Shown here in pieces: positions 10,727 through 21,145 of a stretch of 21,145 nucleotides of DNA. The stretch comes from a virus, in the IMG/VR virus record IMGVR_UViG_3300018063_000428, positions 1 through 21,145 of that record; one strand, written 5' to 3'. A program made the position numbers and the translations under genes. Position 1 is the stretch's first letter; every line of letters starts with the position of its first letter. The notes below the pieces were generated by a model that worked only from the letters and a program-made list of their open reading frames with translations, did no database searches and was not told where the DNA came from.

Positions 10727-10905
10727 TAGTCTTCCTTCCTGGCCGCCTGCGCGACCTCTCGCCTGATGTCGGCGGCGGTGCGCCCGTCGCCCTCACTACT
10801 CTTGTGACCCGCGGCCCGGAAGCGGGCCTGAAGGTGCAGCTTCTCGAGCATGGCTCGGACGCTCTTGCCGCCCTCTGCACGGGCGGTACTCCCGATCTTC
10901 ATCAT
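10726..10905 (-). CDS. small basic protein of unknown function
   Basis: This 59-aa protein was found by reading the gap after the portal gene. It starts ATGATG at 10905 behind an AGGAG Shine-Dalgarno at 10912-10916 and ends in a TAATG overlap with the next gene. The sequence begins MMKIGSTARAEGGKSVRAML and ends in a charged helix (TAADIRREVAQAARKED). It contains no Cys, membrane segment or known motif. Good ribosome binding site, tight spacing and coupling to both neighbours make it a convincing gene. Function is unknown; a small head or assembly protein is a guess. Confidence 0.7.
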   Translation of the reverse strand: MMKIGSTARAEGGKSVRAMLEKLHLQARFRAAGHKSSEGDGRTAADIRREVAQAARKED

Positions 10906-16088: not shown

Positions 16089-17066
16089 TCAGCCTCCGAG
16101 TGCTTTCTTGGCGGCGTTCTTGTGGGTGACCGCGGCGGCGCGCGCCCGGTAGATCGCGTTGAGGTCCGCGGTCAAAGCGTTCAGGTTCACCAGTGCCGCG
16201 GGGATGTCGATCGCCGGCGGGACTGGAACGGGTGCCGGTGCCGGTTCGGGGGCCGGTTCGGGGGCCGGGACAGGTGCTGGAGCGGGCGCCGGTGGAAGCG
16301 GCACGGGGTCGAGGGTGATCTGGGAGTTCGCGAGCAGATAGCCCGCCATCGCACCGTTCTGTACGAGCTGGTACGGCCCAGCGGGCCACCCCGAAGGCGT
16401 GGGCGTGATGGTGTACTCGGCGCTGGCCAGGGCCGGCGACCCAGCCCCGAACGTCCCGGTGGCGGTCAGCGGCGGGGGATCGAGCCGCCGCCCAACCAGG
16501 ATCCCGGCCTTCGTGTACCAGGTCCTCGGTGACGGGTAGGTGACGACGTCCACCTTGGATGGCGGGGCGTACTCGCTCTCACGGATCTCGCGGGCATCGT
16601 TGACGCCGGCGCCCTTGGCCCAGGCCACGATGATCGCGGCGTCGATCAGCTGCCCCGGGCTCTGGTTCGGCGTCATCGGATCGAAGAGCAGGACTGTGCC
16701 CAGGGGTTTGGGAACGACGAACACCGAGTGGTACTGGGCGAAGCCCGCCTGCTGCCAGGCCGTTCCCGGGATACACCCGAAGCCGGCCAGGACCAGACCG
16801 ATGCCAGGGCGGGTGACGGCGTCGGCGATGCTGCCGGTCGAGAGTGCGCGGATGGTCTTGCCGTAGCGGGCCTGGACGGCAGGGATCAGCGTGCCGTAGT
16901 CGCCGACCCGGGGCACGCCCGTAGCCTCGAGGGCCTCGCCCTCCGCGATGCTGTAGATCCCGAGCGGGAAGGCGGTGAAGCCCCCATACACCAGCCCGGT
17001 CAGGGCCGAGATGGTCACACAGGCGTCGTAGTTGCCGTGCTCCGACCAGTTCAGCGGGTCAGCCAT
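16089..17066 (-). CDS. C39-like cysteine peptidase with Pro/Ala linker, likely endolysin
   Basis: This 325-aa protein probably breaks cell wall or cross-bridges during lysis. The N-terminal domain (1-180) has the order of a C39-like papain-fold peptidase: NYDACVTISALTG with candidate nucleophile Cys16, QYHSVFVV with His113, and LLFDPMTP with Asp129. There is no signal peptide, so export would need a holin. Residues 183-252 form a strand-rich middle domain (ILVGRRLDP, YTITPTPSGWPAGPYQLVQN). A Pro/Ala-Glu-rich linker of about 33 residues (253-285) then leads to a short helical, basic C-terminus. The ATG overlaps the CAP gene stop as ATGA. Being flanked by membrane proteins supports the lysis role. 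It could instead be a structural peptidase. Confidence 0.6.
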   Translation of the reverse strand: MADPLNWSEHGNYDACVTISALTGLVYGGFTAFPLGIYSIAEGEALEATGVPRVGDYGTLIPAVQARYGKTIRALSTGSIADAVTRPGIGLVLAGFGCIPGTAWQQAGFAQYHSVFVVPKPLGTVLLFDPMTPNQSPGQLIDAAIIVAWAKGAGVNDAREIRESEYAPPSKVDVVTYPSPRTWYTKAGILVGRRLDPPPLTATGTFGAGSPALASAEYTITPTPSGWPAGPYQLVQNGAMAGYLLANSQITLDPVPLPPAPAPAPVPAPEPAPEPAPAPVPVPPAIDIPAALVNLNALTADLNAIYRARAAAVTHKNAAKKALGG

Positions 17067-17584
17067 CAGCGGGCCTCCATCGCCGTGTCCGGGAGCTCGT
17101 CAACGATCGGCGGACCGATCAAGCCGCCCGGGGTACCGACGATGCAGACGAAGTAGTCGTAGGGGGCATCGTCGGCGTCGTCATCGCCGCCCACGTTCGG
17201 GTCGGGAACGAGCCGGTGGTCGCAGCCGATCCGCAGGTAGGCCGGGTCGGTGAGAATCGTCAGGTGCGGGTCTGAGCTCATCCAGCCCGCCACGGCGGCC
17301 GCGGACGCAGCGGAGAGGTCAGCGTAGCCCCGGTTCCAGGCGATGACCTCGCCCCACGACCAGGCACCGAGACCGTAAGCATCGAGGTCGGCGTGGACGA
17401 AGTCGGCGTCCGCCGTGCGGGCGGCAGCGGCCGACGCCAGGGTCTCGTCGTAGATCCGGGCCAGCCCGGTGGCGCTGGCGACCAGGTTGGCGAGCGCCTG
17501 CCCGCCATCAGCTGCAGAAGCACTCGGGCTGCCCAGCAGCAGGCCCAGCGCGAGGGTGAGGGCGACCAGACCTCGCCTAGCCAT
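17066..17584 (-). CDS. secreted CAP (SCP/PR1)-like protein
   Basis: This 172-aa protein starts with a clear signal peptide (MARRGLVALTLALGLLLGSPSASA, cleavage near residue 25). The rest matches the core of a CAP domain: DADFVHADLDAYGLGAWSWGEVIAWN (about 60-85), AVAGWMSSDPHLTILTDPAYLRIGC (about 96-120) and YDYFVCIVG near the end. WGEVIA stands where the GEN motif is normally found, and the first His of the fold could be His64. Two Cys (about 120 and 147) might form a disulfide. The ATG at 17584 overlaps the upstream membrane gene by 8 nt. CAP proteins bind sterols, lipids or peptidoglycan in various hosts, so the role in a phage is open. Confidence 0.65.
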   Translation of the reverse strand: MARRGLVALTLALGLLLGSPSASAADGGQALANLVASATGLARIYDETLASAAAARTADADFVHADLDAYGLGAWSWGEVIAWNRGYADLSAASAAAVAGWMSSDPHLTILTDPAYLRIGCDHRLVPDPNVGGDDDADDAPYDYFVCIVGTPGGLIGPPIVDELPDTAMEAR

Positions 17585-17879
17585 GAGCCCGCTCCCTGCT
17601 CACGGCGCGGACGAAGATGCCAGCGCTCAGCGAGGCCACGACCTGGATCCCCATGACGATGCCGAACAGGGACTGGGCGAGCTCCCCGGGGAGCACCTGG
17701 AAGATCGCGCCCACCAGCAGGAGGTCAAGGCCGACCAGGCTGACCACGGTCAGGTAGACCGTCGTCTGGTGCAGGAACCGATCGCCGGCGATGAGCGGGC
17801 GCACGCCGATGGCGGCGACGACCCACAGGACCGCGGCGACGGCGGCACCCAGGGCGCCTAGGCCGATCAGGAGGCTCAC
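17577..17879 (-). CDS. small multi-pass membrane protein
   Basis: This 100-aa protein starts with GTG at 17879 (GTGA overlap) and has three hydrophobic stretches: LIGLGALGAAVAAVLWVVAAIGV (about 4-26), TVYLTVVSLVGLDLLLVGAIFQVL (about 40-63) and LFGIVMGIQVVASLSAGIFV (about 71-90), with a basic tail. No motif identifies a family. It belongs to the chain of three small membrane genes before the CAP gene. A holin-like or envelope-modifying role fits the context but is unproven. Confidence 0.6.
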   Translation of the reverse strand: MSLLIGLGALGAAVAAVLWVVAAIGVRPLIAGDRFLHQTTVYLTVVSLVGLDLLLVGAIFQVLPGELAQSLFGIVMGIQVVASLSAGIFVRAVSRERAHG

Positions 17880-18085
17880 GAATCACCCCGGTGGCGGAAC
17901 AGGTTCACGCCCTCGGCCACGAACAGGCCGCCGACCATGCCGCCGACCAGGAAGTAGAACTGGCTGTCAACGATGATCCGCTCGCCGAACACCGCCCGGG
18001 CGATGACGACGAAGACGAGCAGGCCGAGCAGGACGATGACGACCCAGCGCCGGAGCGTGGCCATTGGGTCGGGGGCATCAGCCAC
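17876..18085 (-). CDS. small membrane protein
   Basis: This 69-aa protein has a long hydrophobic helix (VVIVLLGLLVFVVIARAVF, about 14-32) and a second, weaker, Gly-rich segment (FYFLVGGMVGGLFVAEGVNLF). A GTG at 18085 gives VADAPDPMATLRRW; the internal ATG at 18064 would give a 62-aa product and is an equally good start. The stop overlaps the next gene as GTGA. Function unknown; it is one of a run of small membrane proteins at the start of the probable lysis operon. Confidence 0.58.
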   Translation of the reverse strand: MADAPDPMATLRRWVVIVLLGLLVFVVIARAVFGERIIVDSQFYFLVGGMVGGLFVAEGVNLFRHRGDS

Positions 18086-18212
18086 GCACCCTGCTCCCCC
18101 GGATCTGCAGAAGCAGCCAATCGACCGCGTCGCGGAAGTTCAGACCGATGAAGAAGCCGATCAGGAGCCAGGGCAGGGCAGCCGGCAGGTCGGTCAACAA
18201 CGACACGGCCAC
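18078..18212 (-). CDS. very small membrane protein (44 aa)
   Basis: The frame runs from GTG at 18212 (or GTG at 18206) to a stop at 18078-18080 and overlaps the next gene start by 8 nt. The translation begins VAVSLLTDLPAALPWLLIGF and goes on as FIGLNFRDAVDWLLLQIRGS with a basic end. One hydrophobic helix (about residues 11-24) is followed by an amphipathic helix. It is the first gene after the promoter at 18291-18318, and its start lies at the base of a strong hairpin. The evidence is the good hydrophobic pattern and coupling; with no clear Shine-Dalgarno at normal spacing, it remains a probable rather than a certain gene. Confidence 0.5.
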   Translation of the reverse strand: MAVSLLTDLPAALPWLLIGFFIGLNFRDAVDWLLLQIRGSRVRG

Positions 18213-18253
18213 CGGTCCGGGTTGGCCGCCCAATGCCGCGCCGGACCGGTGGC
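18208..18253 (-). repeat. 13-bp perfect inverted repeat (hairpin) in the leader
   Basis: The plus-strand arm 18208-18220 (gccaccggtccgg) pairs exactly with 18241-18253 (ccggaccggtggc), leaving a 20-nt loop. In the minus-strand transcript it lies about 30-76 nt after the promoter. A GAGGAG (18254-18259) precedes it and the GTG start of the 44-aa gene is at its 3' foot. There is no T run, so a normal rho-independent terminator is unlikely. Confidence 0.6.
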
Positions 18254-18290
18254 TCCTCGGAGGGAGGGTGCAGGGCCCCGCATCACACCG

Positions 18291-18318
18291 ATTAGACCGA
18301 TCTGAAATCTACTGTCAA
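18291..18318 (-). promoter_or_regulatory. sigma70-like promoter driving the lysis/late operon
   Basis: On the minus strand TTGACA (18313-18318) and TCTAAT (18291-18296) are separated by 16 bp, with AT-rich bases in a very GC-rich region. It reads toward the lysis and, possibly, packaging and head genes. No other site in the window matches as well. Confidence 0.55.
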
Positions 18319-18331
18319 CCCGCACATGGGC

Positions 18332-18616
18332 TCAGGCGGCGGTTGCGCGGCCCTCGAGACGGTATGAAGCTGGCCGGCCAGCCGGTTCGTGGCGGACGGG
18401 ATCGTGGCTATGGATGCGCTGGTTCTGGATCACCCAGTGCATGAAGTCCAGCGCGGTGTAGTCGCCCTGCTGGGCGCTGATGCGGTCGAAGGCGCGGGCC
18501 CACTGGTGCATCGCCTCGAGCATCGCCTCGGAGAACTCGGTCGGTGGGACGGACTCGGGCTTCGTCATGCCGACGATGCCGCACTCGGGGCAGGTCCAGG
18601 TCCGCGCCCGGGCCAT
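18332..18616 (-). CDS. small CxxC zinc-finger-like protein of unknown function
   Basis: This 94-aa protein opens MARARTWTCPECGIVGMTKP: Cys9 and Cys12 form one knuckle, but no second Cys pair follows, so zinc binding would need other ligands (His residues are present at about 37, 60, 69, 71 and 76). The middle is a helix (EFSEAMLEAMHQWARAFDRISAQQ) and the tail is basic. ATG at 18616 is the first start; the frame upstream is open back to a TGA at about 18665 and includes the repeat at 18623-18647, but no ATG, GTG or TTG lies in it. It is the last gene of the recombination module before the late promoter. Function unknown. Confidence 0.6.
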   Translation of the reverse strand: MARARTWTCPECGIVGMTKPESVPPTEFSEAMLEAMHQWARAFDRISAQQGDYTALDFMHWVIQNQRIHSHDPVRHEPAGRPASYRLEGRATAA

Positions 18617-18622
18617 CAGGTT

Positions 18623-18647
18623 TGAGCCCTTATCTGAGCCCTTATTC
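18623..18647 (-). repeat. 25-nt repeat, copy 1 (tandem 12-mer)
   Basis: On the minus strand this reads GAATAAGGGCTCA then GATAAGGGCTCA, so it contains two direct 12-mers (G-A/T-AATAAGGGCTCA pattern). An identical 25-nt copy lies at 18792-18816. Its AT content is clearly higher than its surroundings. It is a candidate integrase arm-type binding site. Confidence 0.7.
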
Positions 18648-18791
18648 GAACCGTCCCATGCGTGTCAGGCGGTCCCAGCGTGCTCGCGCCGTCGCGGCCT
18701 GCGACGCTCACCACCGGCCGGGAGCAAATCCGGTATGCGGTACCACTCACGCTCACGGCAGAGTCACTCCGTGCTCACCCGACTCGTCGGA
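18648..18791. other. putative phage attachment site (attP) core region
   Basis: This 144-bp stretch is flanked by two identical 25-nt direct repeats and lies next to the tyrosine integrase gene. It includes the non-coding gap 18648-18752 and the 3' end of the 72-aa gene. It contains a small inverted repeat, ggta-tgcgg-tacc (18732-18744), that could be core-type. The layout of paired arm sites on both sides of a core matches known tyrosine integrase attP sites, but the crossover point cannot be fixed from sequence alone. Confidence 0.35.
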
Positions 18792-18971
18792 TGAGCCCTT
18801 ATCTGAGCCCTTATTCTCGACGACCGCGCGTAGAACCGACAGCAACCGCTGCTGCTCATGCTCCCGCCAGGCGCCTAGGACGTGGGCCATCGCGGTCGCG
18901 GCCCGGGTGGCGGCGACGCACGACTGGCTGTATGCCTCGAATGCTCGCGCGAGCTGACGGACGTCAGTCAT
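18753..18971 (-). CDS. small protein of unknown function next to integrase
   Basis: This 72-aa protein starts with ATG 18971, overlapping the integrase stop by ATGA. It begins MTDVRQLARAFEAYSQSCVA, continues as a long amphipathic helix (ATAMAHVLGAWREHEQQRLLSVLRAVVE), and ends in a Ser/Gly/Lys tail that contains the repeat-encoded NKGSDKGS. No known motif. Its tight coupling to the integrase suggests a role in integration or in regulating it, but this is context only. The coding of NKGSDKGS uses codons (AAT, AAG, GAT, TCA) rare in this window, as though the DNA, not the protein, is being conserved. Confidence 0.6.
   Translation of the reverse strand: MTDVRQLARAFEAYSQSCVAATRAATAMAHVLGAWREHEQQRLLSVLRAVVENKGSDKGSSDESGEHGVTLP
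18792..18816 (-). repeat. 25-nt repeat, copy 2 (tandem 12-mer)
   Basis: Identical to 18623-18647, 169 bp away, same orientation, but inside the 3' part of the 72-aa gene. It is read there as NKGSDKGS. It is the candidate second integrase arm site. Confidence 0.7.
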
Positions 18972-20116
18972 CCCGTCCCCCTCCCGAGCAGCTGGTCGAG
19001 GGTCCGGACCGCCTCGGCCTGCATCGTCGGCAGGACGTGGGCGTAGGTGTCCAGGGTCATCGTGACGGTCGAGTGGCCGAGCATCTCGCTGACGACCTTC
19101 GCGTTGACGCCGCCGGCGAGGAGCAGGGTCGCCGCGGTGTGACGGAGATCGTGGAACCGGATCCGCGGCAGGCCGGCCGCGACCAGGAGCGGGCGGAGCT
19201 CGCGCTCGGCCAGGTGGTTGCCCTGCAGCGGCTCGCCGGCGGCGTCGGTGAAGACCAGGTCGACGTCGGTGACGCGGTGACCGATGGCCAGCAGCTGCTC
19301 CGCCTGGCGGACACGGTGGGCACGGAGGACGGCCAGCGTCGGGTCGGTCAGGTCGATGCTGCGTCGGCCGCGCGATGTCTTCGGCTCCCCGATCCACCAT
19401 CGGCCCTGCATCCGCGACAGGGTGCCCGTGACGCGGATCCGCCGGGCCGACCAGTCGACGTCCTGCCAGCGGAGGGCGAGGAGCTCGCCGGAACGCATCG
19501 CGGTGGTGATGGCCAGCAGCCACAGGGCATGGAGCTCGTGGTCCGCGGCCACCTCGAGGAACCTGCGCACCTGGTCAGGATCCAGGACGGCCATCTCGGT
19601 CCGCTGCCGGCGCGGCTGGGTGACCGCGTCGACCGGGTTCCGCGCCAGGAGCTGCCACCGAACCGCCTGGTCGAGGGCGCCGTGGAGGACGGCGTGGAGG
19701 TAGCGGATGCTCGAGCTCGACTGCCCCGCGTCGGCGAGGTCGGCGTACAGCTTCGCCAGGTGCTGCGGTGTCAACTGGCCGAGCCGGAGACGGCCGAGGG
19801 TGGGCAGGACGTGCTTCCGGACGAGGCCGTCGTACCGCTCCCAGCTGCGGCCGCGGAGCTTGTGGCGGGCGACATCGTCGAGCCAGTGGCGGAGGAAGTG
19901 CTCGAGCGTCTGCCCCGGGCCGGCGACGACGATGCCCTGGGCGAGATCTCGGAGCGCGGCGTCGCGTTTGTCGGCTGCTTCCTGGGAGCTCCGCCCGTAG
20001 ACCGGATGGCGACGGCTGTCCGATCCGATGTAGCGCGATCGCCATCGGCCATCGGCCTGAAGTCGCGGCCGCTCCCCGGTGCCCTTCTGCCGTCGACGAG
20101 CCATGGGGGCGATCAT
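18968..20116 (-). CDS. int: tyrosine site-specific integrase
   Basis: The 382-aa recombinase inserts and excises the phage genome. The N-terminus (1-65) is an arm-binding domain rich in Arg/Lys with RRQKGTGERPRLQADGRW. Residues 70-165 form the SAM-like core-binding domain (TLEHFLRHWLDDVARHKLRG). The catalytic domain (about 175-375) has all six expected features: Arg208 in TTAMRSGELLALRW, Lys246 in GEPKTSRGRRSIDL, His322 and Arg325 in FHDLRHTAAT, His348 in LGHSTVTMTLD, and nucleophile Tyr358 in DTYAH. It is complete. ATG 20116 lies three bases after the HTH gene stop; ATG 20104 (MARRRQ) is an alternative start. The excisionase-like genes precede it, and the likely attP follows it. Confidence 0.95.
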   Translation of the reverse strand: MIAPMARRRQKGTGERPRLQADGRWRSRYIGSDSRRHPVYGRSSQEAADKRDAALRDLAQGIVVAGPGQTLEHFLRHWLDDVARHKLRGRSWERYDGLVRKHVLPTLGRLRLGQLTPQHLAKLYADLADAGQSSSSIRYLHAVLHGALDQAVRWQLLARNPVDAVTQPRRQRTEMAVLDPDQVRRFLEVAADHELHALWLLAITTAMRSGELLALRWQDVDWSARRIRVTGTLSRMQGRWWIGEPKTSRGRRSIDLTDPTLAVLRAHRVRQAEQLLAIGHRVTDVDLVFTDAAGEPLQGNHLAERELRPLLVAAGLPRIRFHDLRHTAATLLLAGGVNAKVVSEMLGHSTVTMTLDTYAHVLPTMQAEAVRTLDQLLGRGTG

Positions 20117-20119
20117 AGG

Positions 20120-20323
20120 TCAGCGCCCATACCGGGCCGCGGCCGCGGCGAGCTGGTCCTCGATGAAACGGTCGAGCTCGCGGCGCAGAACCCTCCACCC
20201 GGACCCGACCCGGAAGCCGGCCAGCTCGCCCGTGGTGACCATCCGGTGCGCGGTCGATCGACTGACGCGCAGGGCCTCCGCGACCTCGCTGAGGGTCATC
20301 GACAGGCCGGCGAGCTCGGTCAT
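20120..20323 (-). CDS. excisionase-like helix-turn-helix protein (copy 2 of 2)
   Basis: This 67-aa protein contains a MerR/excisionase-type winged helix-turn-helix: MTLSEVAEALRVSRSTAHRM (residues 9-28), then TGELAGFRVGSGWRVLRRELDRFI (31-54), with the wing residues GSGWRV typical of this group. It probably binds DNA next to the attachment site to direct excision or regulates the operon. The ATG overlaps the preceding HTH gene stop as ATGA, and its own stop is three bases before the integrase start, which supports a recombination-directionality role. Confidence 0.83.
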   Translation of the reverse strand: MTELAGLSMTLSEVAEALRVSRSTAHRMVTTGELAGFRVGSGWRVLRRELDRFIEDQLAAAAARYGR

Positions 20324-20499
20324 CGGGCGATCCTCGCGGCCAGGTAGGCGTCGACGTCGCGCCGGAAGAACCGCAGATCGCCCCGTTCCACGATGCGGTA
20401 CGCCTCCAGCTGGCGGCGCTGGACGAGCCGCTTGACGGTGTTGCCGTGGACCCCGAGCAGCTCGGCGACCTGGCGGGCGGTCAGCAGCTGCGCGGTCAT
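20320..20499 (-). CDS. excisionase-like helix-turn-helix protein (copy 1 of 2)
   Basis: This 59-aa protein has the same fold: LLTARQVAELLGVHGNTVKR (about 5-24), LVQRRQLEAYRI (25-36) and GDLRFFRRDVDAYLAAR (41-57). It starts with ATG 20499, in ATGA overlap with the RuvC-like gene. An earlier start would extend into that gene and is unlikely. It differs from its neighbour in sequence, so the pair is not a recent duplication. One may act as excisionase and the other as a regulator, which cannot be decided here. Confidence 0.83.
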   Translation of the reverse strand: MTAQLLTARQVAELLGVHGNTVKRLVQRRQLEAYRIVERGDLRFFRRDVDAYLAARIAR

Positions 20500-20990
20500 G
20501 CCGCCAGATCCCCCGCCGTTACGGCGACGGCCAGCGCCGACCACAGGTCGTTGGCGATGCCGTACAGCGGACCCGGCGCCTTCTTCGTGCCCTTCGCGGA
20601 CGGGCCGCCGTACCGGTCGAGCAGCGCCTGGCGGATGTTGGGATCCTTTGCTTGAGCGGTCCCGCAGAGATGGACCTTGATCGTTCGTCGGCCAATGCGG
20701 TCGACCGGCAACGGCTGGGCCGCCTCGGCGAAGCGCCCTGACCAGTAGACGGTCTCGAACACCTCGGCGCCGACGGCCATGCCGAAGCTCTCGACCTTCT
20801 CGATGACGAGGCGGGTGACGGTTCCTGTTCCGAATCCGCTGCCGCCAACCGAGGCATCAGGCGAGAGATGGCGTAACTGCTGGCGGAGCCAATCGTTGGG
20901 CGAGATGGCCGCGTCGCGCACGATGCCGTCGTCGTAGACCACCCAGGCTGACTGCTCGGGCCCGGGATCGATAGCCATCAGGACGGTCAC
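20496..20990 (-). CDS. RuvC-like Holliday junction resolvase / RNase H-fold nuclease
   Basis: This 164-aa protein shows the RuvC-type order: MAIDPGPEQSAWVV with Asp8, LVIEKVESFGM with Glu64 (and Glu67), the Lys-rich KGTKKAPGPLYGIANDLWSALAVA near the end with an Asp148 in the expected last acidic place, and DPNIRQALLDRYG (116-128) between them. RuvC-like nucleases resolve branched DNA in replication and packaging. It starts with GTG at 20990 in GTGA overlap with the upstream partial gene; ATG 20978 is an alternative and begins the same motif. Its exact substrate is inferred from family only. Confidence 0.82.
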   Translation of the reverse strand: MTVLMAIDPGPEQSAWVVYDDGIVRDAAISPNDWLRQQLRHLSPDASVGGSGFGTGTVTRLVIEKVESFGMAVGAEVFETVYWSGRFAEAAQPLPVDRIGRRTIKVHLCGTAQAKDPNIRQALLDRYGGPSAKGTKKAPGPLYGIANDLWSALAVAVTAGDLAA

Positions 20991-21145
20991 GTCAGGGCCC
21001 TCGGGTTGAGCAGGCGGTCCAGCTTCTGCTCGATCCGGCGCAGGGCCTCCTCGGCCTGGGGGACCGAGACCACCTCCCACTCGGGTCCGATGATCAGGGT
21101 CCCATCGCGCTTGGTGGTGCGCCGGATCGTCGAGCGGATCTCCTC
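20987..21145 (-). CDS. unknown protein, 5' end outside window (partial)
   Basis: The frame is open from the right edge to a stop at 20987-20989, 52 residues. It ends in GPEWEVVSVPQAEEALRRIE and QKLDRLLNPRALT, an amphipathic C-terminal helix. The stop overlaps the RuvC-like gene start by GTGA, so it is part of the same operon. There are too few residues to assign a family. Confidence 0.55.
   Translation of the reverse strand, partial: EEIRSTIRRTTKRDGTLIIGPEWEVVSVPQAEEALRRIEQKLDRLLNPRALT

Follow-up and report, generated by a model that had tools for sequence, protein, structure and literature searches.

The stretch of DNA analysed here (the window, a virus record of 21,145 bases) encodes a tyrosine integrase, next to which short direct repeats occur in two blocks. 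This arrangement raises the question of whether the locus is the site at which the phage recombines into a host chromosome and, if so, which host sequence serves as its target. An earlier note on the sequence had proposed that positions 18,623-18,816 are a likely attP.

Repeat blocks and genes next to the integrase

Two identical 25-nt blocks, TGAGCCCTTATCTGAGCCCTTATTC, lie at 18,623-18,647 and 18,792-18,816, with a start-to-start distance of 169 nt and 144 nt between them. The unit TGAGCCCTTAT is present in four copies and nowhere else in the window even at up to one mismatch; shuffled sequences searched with the same tolerance gave a mean of 0.10 and a maximum of 1, and four copies were reached in 0 of 100 shuffles. 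The blocks had been described as paired 12-mer direct repeats. Their identity and spacing hold, but the two 12-mers of each block differ in their last base (..TATC vs ..TATT), so that the exact repeated unit is an 11-mer with a period of 12. Read on the minus strand, which is the direction of the integrase gene, this unit is ATAAGGGCTCA, again with a period of 12. The features of the region are as follows.

18,332-18,616, minus strand: 94-aa open reading frame (ORF), starting 7 nt from the D block
18,623-18,647, minus strand: distal arm block D, with two predicted arm-type sites ATAAGGGCTCA at 18,635-18,645 and 18,623-18,633
18,727-18,745, plus strand: attP core AATCCGGTATGCGGTACCA, equal to the 3' end of tRNA-Glu(CTC) (T-loop/T-stem, acceptor strand and CCA)
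18,732-18,744, no strand assigned: short inverted repeat GGTA-TGCGG-TACC inside the 19-nt core
18,753-18,971, minus strand: 72-aa ORF directly after the integrase gene, a putative gene that contains the P block
18,792-18,816, minus strand: integrase-proximal arm block P, with two predicted arm-type sites ATAAGGGCTCA at 18,804-18,814 and 18,792-18,802
18,968-20,116, minus strand: tyrosine integrase of 382 aa, with N-terminal strands and helix, a SAM-like core-binding domain (PF14659) and a catalytic domain (PF00589)
20,120-20,323, minus strand: small HTH_17 protein of 67 aa (profile match), candidate excisionase or regulator
20,320-20,499, minus strand: second small HTH_17 protein, of 59 aa (profile match), candidate excisionase or regulator

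In the direction of the integrase gene, the two sites of the P block start 69 and 57 nt ahead of the core, and those of the D block start 100 and 112 nt after the core start. The local G+C content is about 0.56-0.60 at both blocks vs 0.60-0.80 in the surroundings, the earlier note having remarked on AT-rich codons in the block inside the ORF. This block (18,792-18,816) does lie within an ORF, in which it reads ..ENKGSDKGSS..; that the ORF is a coding gene, as had been stated, is unproven, its family matches reaching E values of 0.0015-0.08 only. Upstream of the attP region, a perfect 13-nt inverted repeat (18,208-18,220 and 18,241-18,253, with 20 nt between its arms) is a possible terminator.

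The integrase matches the profiles PF00589 (E 8e-26), PF14659 (E 2e-10) and phrog_1 (E 5e-77). Residues R208, K246, H322, R325, H348 and Y358, which we take to be the catalytic set of tyrosine recombinases, are invariant across nine aligned integrase sequences. The predicted structural model has a mean pLDDT of 85 and begins, at residues 14-59 (block pLDDT mostly 65-86), with three strands and one helix, presumably a domain of the type by which integrases of this family contact their arm sites. The best Foldseek matches of the model were Tn1549 Int (6en2, E 1e-13) and lambda Int (1z1b, E 1.7e-13), and the alignments to full-length lambda Int covered 354-364 columns in most rows, a whole-protein comparison with the N-terminal domain included. 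Both HTH_17 proteins, encoded as a pair upstream of the integrase, match phrog_66 (excisionase and transcriptional regulator; E 6e-10 and 4e-9). A Holliday-junction-resolvase-like protein is also encoded near the integrase, at 20,496-21,080 (phrog_1770, E 3.7e-13).

The core matches the 3' end of a bacterial tRNA-Glu(CTC) gene

ARAGORN called no tRNA gene in the window. By ARAGORN and alignment, the core is identical at 19 of 19 nt to tRNA-Glu(CTC) 3' ends. The short inverted repeat that had been put forward as the core candidate is real and falls within these 19 nt.

An 18-nt query from the core region matched, with up to two mismatches, in 90 of 400 sampled Chloroflexota genomes. ARAGORN called tRNA-Glu(CTC) in 17 of the 20 regions fetched from these matches and in none of L046, L047 and L048. 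The tRNA 3' end was identical to the core over 19 nt in 13 of the 17 (L031, L032, L033, L035, L036 and L038-L045); it differed by one base in L034 and L037 and by one or two in L049 and L050. Within the class to which genome G343 belongs, the 19-mer (last base T or G, up to one mismatch) occurred in 120 of 177 genomes, and the reversed control in 0. The exact core 19-mer was found in 0 of 396 genomes from the phylum of a Rubrobacter MAG, and a core test in the six genomes of loci L005-L010 gave no match. We take the phylum of G001 to be Chloroflexota and that of G004 to be Actinomycetota; our guess for the Chloroflexota class with the core is Limnocylindria.

Related integrases keep the two-sided layout

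Integrases 50-64% identical to that of the phage, in bacteria and in viral contigs, are followed by the same succession: a pair with 12-nt period, then the tRNA-Glu core, then another pair lying some 99 nt beyond the start of the core. Close relatives in the class of G343 were found in G518 (56%), G027 (54%), G526 (64%, over partial length) and G045 (50% and 56%). The tRNA-Glu core lies 192-322 nt beyond the end of the tblastn match in L083/L135, L087, L081 and L086, as well as in the fragment in L046. Pairs of the ATAAGGG type are present on both sides of the core in L135 and L087 and on the integrase side in L081 and L086; in L046 a clear pair is present on the far side only. The P pair lies 69 nt from the core here vs 86-109 nt in most relatives, although 66-67 nt also occurs. 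No core was found within 600 nt behind the 50% identical integrase of G045 (L084), and this locus was left out of the supporting relatives. The repeats on which the attP proposal had been built are thus kept in relatives with the same kind of integrase, where they are paired around the core at conserved distances while the spacer has diverged.

Identical 25-mers 169 nt apart could also be the ends of, or a local duplication from, some other insertion. Given that the tRNA-Glu core sits within the intervening 144 nt and that relatives have the same two-sided layout around an unrelated spacer, we regard this explanation as scarcely credible. The same extremely low probability attaches to the idea that the repeats are a protein repeat, KGSDKGS, in the ORF behind the integrase that was duplicated by chance into the other block. 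Block 18,792-18,816 is in frame in the 72-aa ORF, its 12-nt period equals four codons, and the P pair is read in the integrase frame in L135 and L087; yet the D block lies outside the 72-aa ORF, the P pair of L081 lies behind the integrase stop codon, and it is the DNA motif, with its distance from the core, that is conserved.

In L135:2130-3623 and L087:1501-2334, the near arm pair and the core are read through in the integrase frame; the integrated and the circular form should therefore have integrases with different C-termini.

In more distant relatives, the 3' end of the integrase gene faces the 3' end of a tRNA gene (tRNA-Phe in L005, tRNA-Val in L008-L010). A plain search for direct repeats of at least 11 nt in the six distant loci L005-L010 gave nothing useful on the 3' side, and in L008 returned tRNA sequence only. 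A finer search found a pair with a period of 11-12 between the integrase and the tRNA or core in 8 of 8 loci (L005, L008, L009, L010, L081, L088, L089 and L155; the two loci with no tRNA call, L006 and L007, were left out). Six of these (L005, L008, L009, L010, L088 and L089) have related integrases, with tRNA-Phe, -Val, -Arg and -Lys as neighbours, and their pair motifs differ.

Arm pairs and junctions in bacterial genomes

The paired motif ATAAGGGNNCNNATAAGGGNNC was found at 47 places in 15 of 177 genomes, and the backward-read pattern at 0. At 42 of the 47 places, a core in the same orientation (up to two mismatches) starts 97-100 nt before or 66-109 nt after the pair. Among the five places without a good core, that in G361 has a core-like stretch with five mismatches at -99, and four have no core at the expected distance (G027 C4:982977, G518 C341, G518 C447 and G518 C485:20481).

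We then counted arm pairs around the distinct cores of the fetched loci, excluding six cores near contig ends. The far pair D accompanied 0 of the 19 tRNA-linked cores and the near pair P 5 of 19; around the 54 other cores, D was present in 36, P in 14 and neither pair in 17, counts that describe these loci, picked for having a core or motif, and not all genomes. At 10,800 random positions the far pair occurred at a rate of 0.14% and the near pair at 1.05%. To judge from these sequences, the pattern is the one expected of attL (integrase side plus tRNA), attR and element-to-element junctions.

Cross-comparison of 46 island loci yielded 64 alignments of at least 250 nt. Among the 60 of these that were listed, seven were found by eye to start or stop at the core in both loci (L081/L140, L135/L181, L135/L137, L149/L150, L087/L135, L135/L148 and L087/L148). 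Locus L081 (G027) is 97.8% identical to L140 (G045) over 1007 nt, the alignment ending 2 nt past the core; beyond it, one of the two runs into tRNA-Glu and the other does not. The alignments indicate that homology between islands breaks at the core.

Many of the cores not linked to a tRNA (L137, L142, L143, L135 and others) end in ..GGATG, ..GGACT or ..GGAAT, the tRNA ending in ..GGATT. Strand exchange would take place before core position 18, counted in the integrase direction, if the far-arm side is where these variants belong. L150:6726-7555 (G361) contains a degenerate core, 99 nt from which lies a far arm pair. This stretch is 85% identical to one beginning at an intact core in L149, and looks like a decayed site.

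Viral contigs with the same core

An exact scan of viral contigs with 18 nt of the core returned five contigs (L152, L153, L154, L155 and L156). In four of the five, tblastn located an integrase ending next to the core, with identities over the matched part of 52% (L155), 53% (L153), 29% (L154) and 39% (L152); no integrase was found within the 1.1 kb of L156 that was searched. The near and far blocks of L155 are identical over 29 nt, compared with 25 nt in the window, and the pairs of L153 are ATAAGGG-like, each with a single mismatch. At similar places, L156, L152 and L154 carry period-12 pairs whose motifs are different (GTTGCTAC, GGTTGCCA) and some of which have two mismatches in nine. Because pairs with up to one mismatch in nine turn up at random places at rates of 7.9% in the near zone and 2.8% in the far zone, imperfect pairs are weak on their own. 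Taken as a set, these contigs point to a constant layout and a core common to phages, with a variable arm sequence.

The exact 25-mer block had no match in the viral contigs, and the integrase as a single query against them gave seven pattern matches, none of them a relative. A nucleotide search of 16,500-21,145 in phage records found no match and no lysogen of the phage. Tandem ATAAGGGnnC pairs are present in six viral contigs (L157-L162), none with the core or a related integrase; we rejected these as background, and the paired motif alone is not diagnostic. L159 and L162 have a very similar stretch in common.

The repeats might instead be operators of a regulator, or binding sites of an excisionase, that flank the core by chance, a reading favoured by the two small HTH_17 proteins encoded just upstream of the integrase and by the ORF that starts 7 nt from the D block. 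We consider it very unlikely, as the pairs keep a fixed distance from the core (97-100 nt for D), are common to elements with quite different neighbouring genes, and differ in sequence where the integrase is distant (L152 and L154, 29-39% identity). Furthermore, excisionase sites would be expected on one side of a core rather than as equal pairs on both.

The attP and a model of integration

We conclude with near certainty that 18,623-18,816 is the attP of the phage, with arm-type sites for the adjacent integrase, and that the attB is the 3' end of the host tRNA-Glu(CTC). Arm-type repeats flank the core on both sides and are kept in relatives, the core equals the bacterial attB, and related elements have their junctions at the core. 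The attP proposal of the earlier note is therefore upheld by a tRNA-Glu core between arm pairs and by the same anatomy and the expected junction pattern in relatives; the host attachment site, which the note had left to be found, is the tRNA-Glu(CTC) 3' end, as found in a Chloroflexota class. As an attP, it is of an ordinary, already known kind.

In the model that we propose, the catalytic and core-binding domains of the integrase would contact the 19-nt core at 18,727-18,745, and its N-terminal domain would bind the four ATAAGGGCTCA arm-type sites, one pair per side. Bridging by the integrase would fold attP into a complex that captures attB, and strand exchange between attP and attB would presumably be carried out by the phage integrase. 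Since attB is an identical tRNA-Glu(CTC) 3' end, the tRNA gene would stay intact upon insertion. In the integrated phage, attL, the junction on the tRNA side, would have the P pair beside the integrase gene, and attR, the far junction, would be marked by the D pair. As both arm pairs flank one core in the window, the contig derives either from phage DNA that was free, whether circular or packaged, or from the junction of two tandem elements, and not from a single prophage end.

Through its attP, an anonymous 21-kb viral contig acquires an insertion site, which is tRNA-Glu(CTC), and the attP sequence suggests a host that likely belongs to one class of Chloroflexota. Core and arms behave as separate modules, in that integrases with the tRNA-Glu core have different arm motifs, and the architecture, with its period of 12 and its far pair some 99 nt beyond the start of the core, is nearly constant. 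This layout provides a rule by which attP can be sought in uncultured phages, and it also brings to light small elements in arrays that follow the same grammar.

Arrays of small elements between tRNA-Glu cores

More unusual than the attP itself are stacked short elements, of about 1.2-4.7 kb and with one or few genes, that lie between successive tRNA-Glu cores in several genomes (L137:9605-13120, L040:904-4265, L045:655-13326, L140:3619-7933, L142:38-3107 and L143:4014-8120). They are bounded by this core and by arm pairs as in the phage attP. Their genes were called by a simple longest-ORF rule, and most of the small elements had no match to an HMM built from the nine aligned integrases. Examples are listed below.

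G027 C5, 115,505-117,018: both pairs, 1.5 kb, one PALP-family enzyme gene
G343 C11: both pairs, 3.4 kb, two cyclase-domain proteins
G522 C177: both pairs, 4.1 kb, one large cyclase/ATPase-like protein (named by eye)
G027 C5, 117,018-119,020: far pair, near pair not found, FAD-binding protein
G518 C485: far pair, near pair not found, phosphonate-binding-like protein
G014 C1, 6,098-8,632 of L045: near pair of another motif, sigma factor and Kelch protein

In the elements of G516 (C130) and G027 (C4:981687), the D pair is identical to the phage arms over 23 nt, which makes them potential substrates of the phage integrase itself. About 1.6 kb further along, the G027 C4 element also contains a distant integrase-like ORF. 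A bolder reading, which we put forward as speculative and rather improbable, is that in this Chloroflexota class phage-type att sites form the borders of a gene-cassette system. Its elements, of about 1.2-4 kb and lacking a related integrase, would each begin at a tRNA-Glu core with a D pair, in some cases finish at a P pair, stack up, and be moved in trans by integrases of phages similar to this one.

Comparison with known systems

Our literature search found no papers on Limnocylindria prophages, nor on Chloroflexota phage integrases with a tRNA attB. The closest comparison is with mycobacteriophages, as described in the part of one paper available to us (PMC3203893). In the Cluster K phages, 11 bp repeat pairs flank a core that is the tmRNA 3' end in the CrimD attP, and repeat pairs flank a core overlapping tRNA-Lys in Pixie; in L5 and Giles the arm pairs are in direct orientation (PMC3203893). 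The attP described here resembles all four in having pairs of short repeats around the core, and L5 and Giles in their direct orientation. It differs from Cluster K, L5 and Giles, as far as that part of the paper covers them, in its target, the tRNA-Glu(CTC) of a Chloroflexota class, in its period of 12 and in its arm sequence ATAAGGGCTCA. The core lies 3' of the integrase gene here, whereas in CrimD it lies 5' and the right pair is inverted (PMC3203893). Arm sequences can also differ between mycobacteriophages that share one attachment site (PMC3203893), the relation seen here among the phages with the tRNA-Glu core.

The integrase is like those of lambda and Tn1549 in the fold of its core-binding and catalytic domains and in its N-terminal strands and helix, according to the predicted model, but its sequence identity to them is only about 17-23% in the Foldseek alignments.

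Stacked elements bounded by copies of an RNA 3' end are described, in the parts of the sources at hand, for the ssrA islands of Dehalococcoides, where some elements are without an integration module and serine recombinases are used (PMC3146451), and for an additive island at tRNA-Lys in Methylophilaceae, in connection with tycheposons (PMC10872708). The arrays described here have paired arm sites, which those parts do not mention for either island (PMC3146451, PMC10872708); they resemble the ssrA and tRNA-Lys islands in being stacked and bounded by RNA 3'-end copies.
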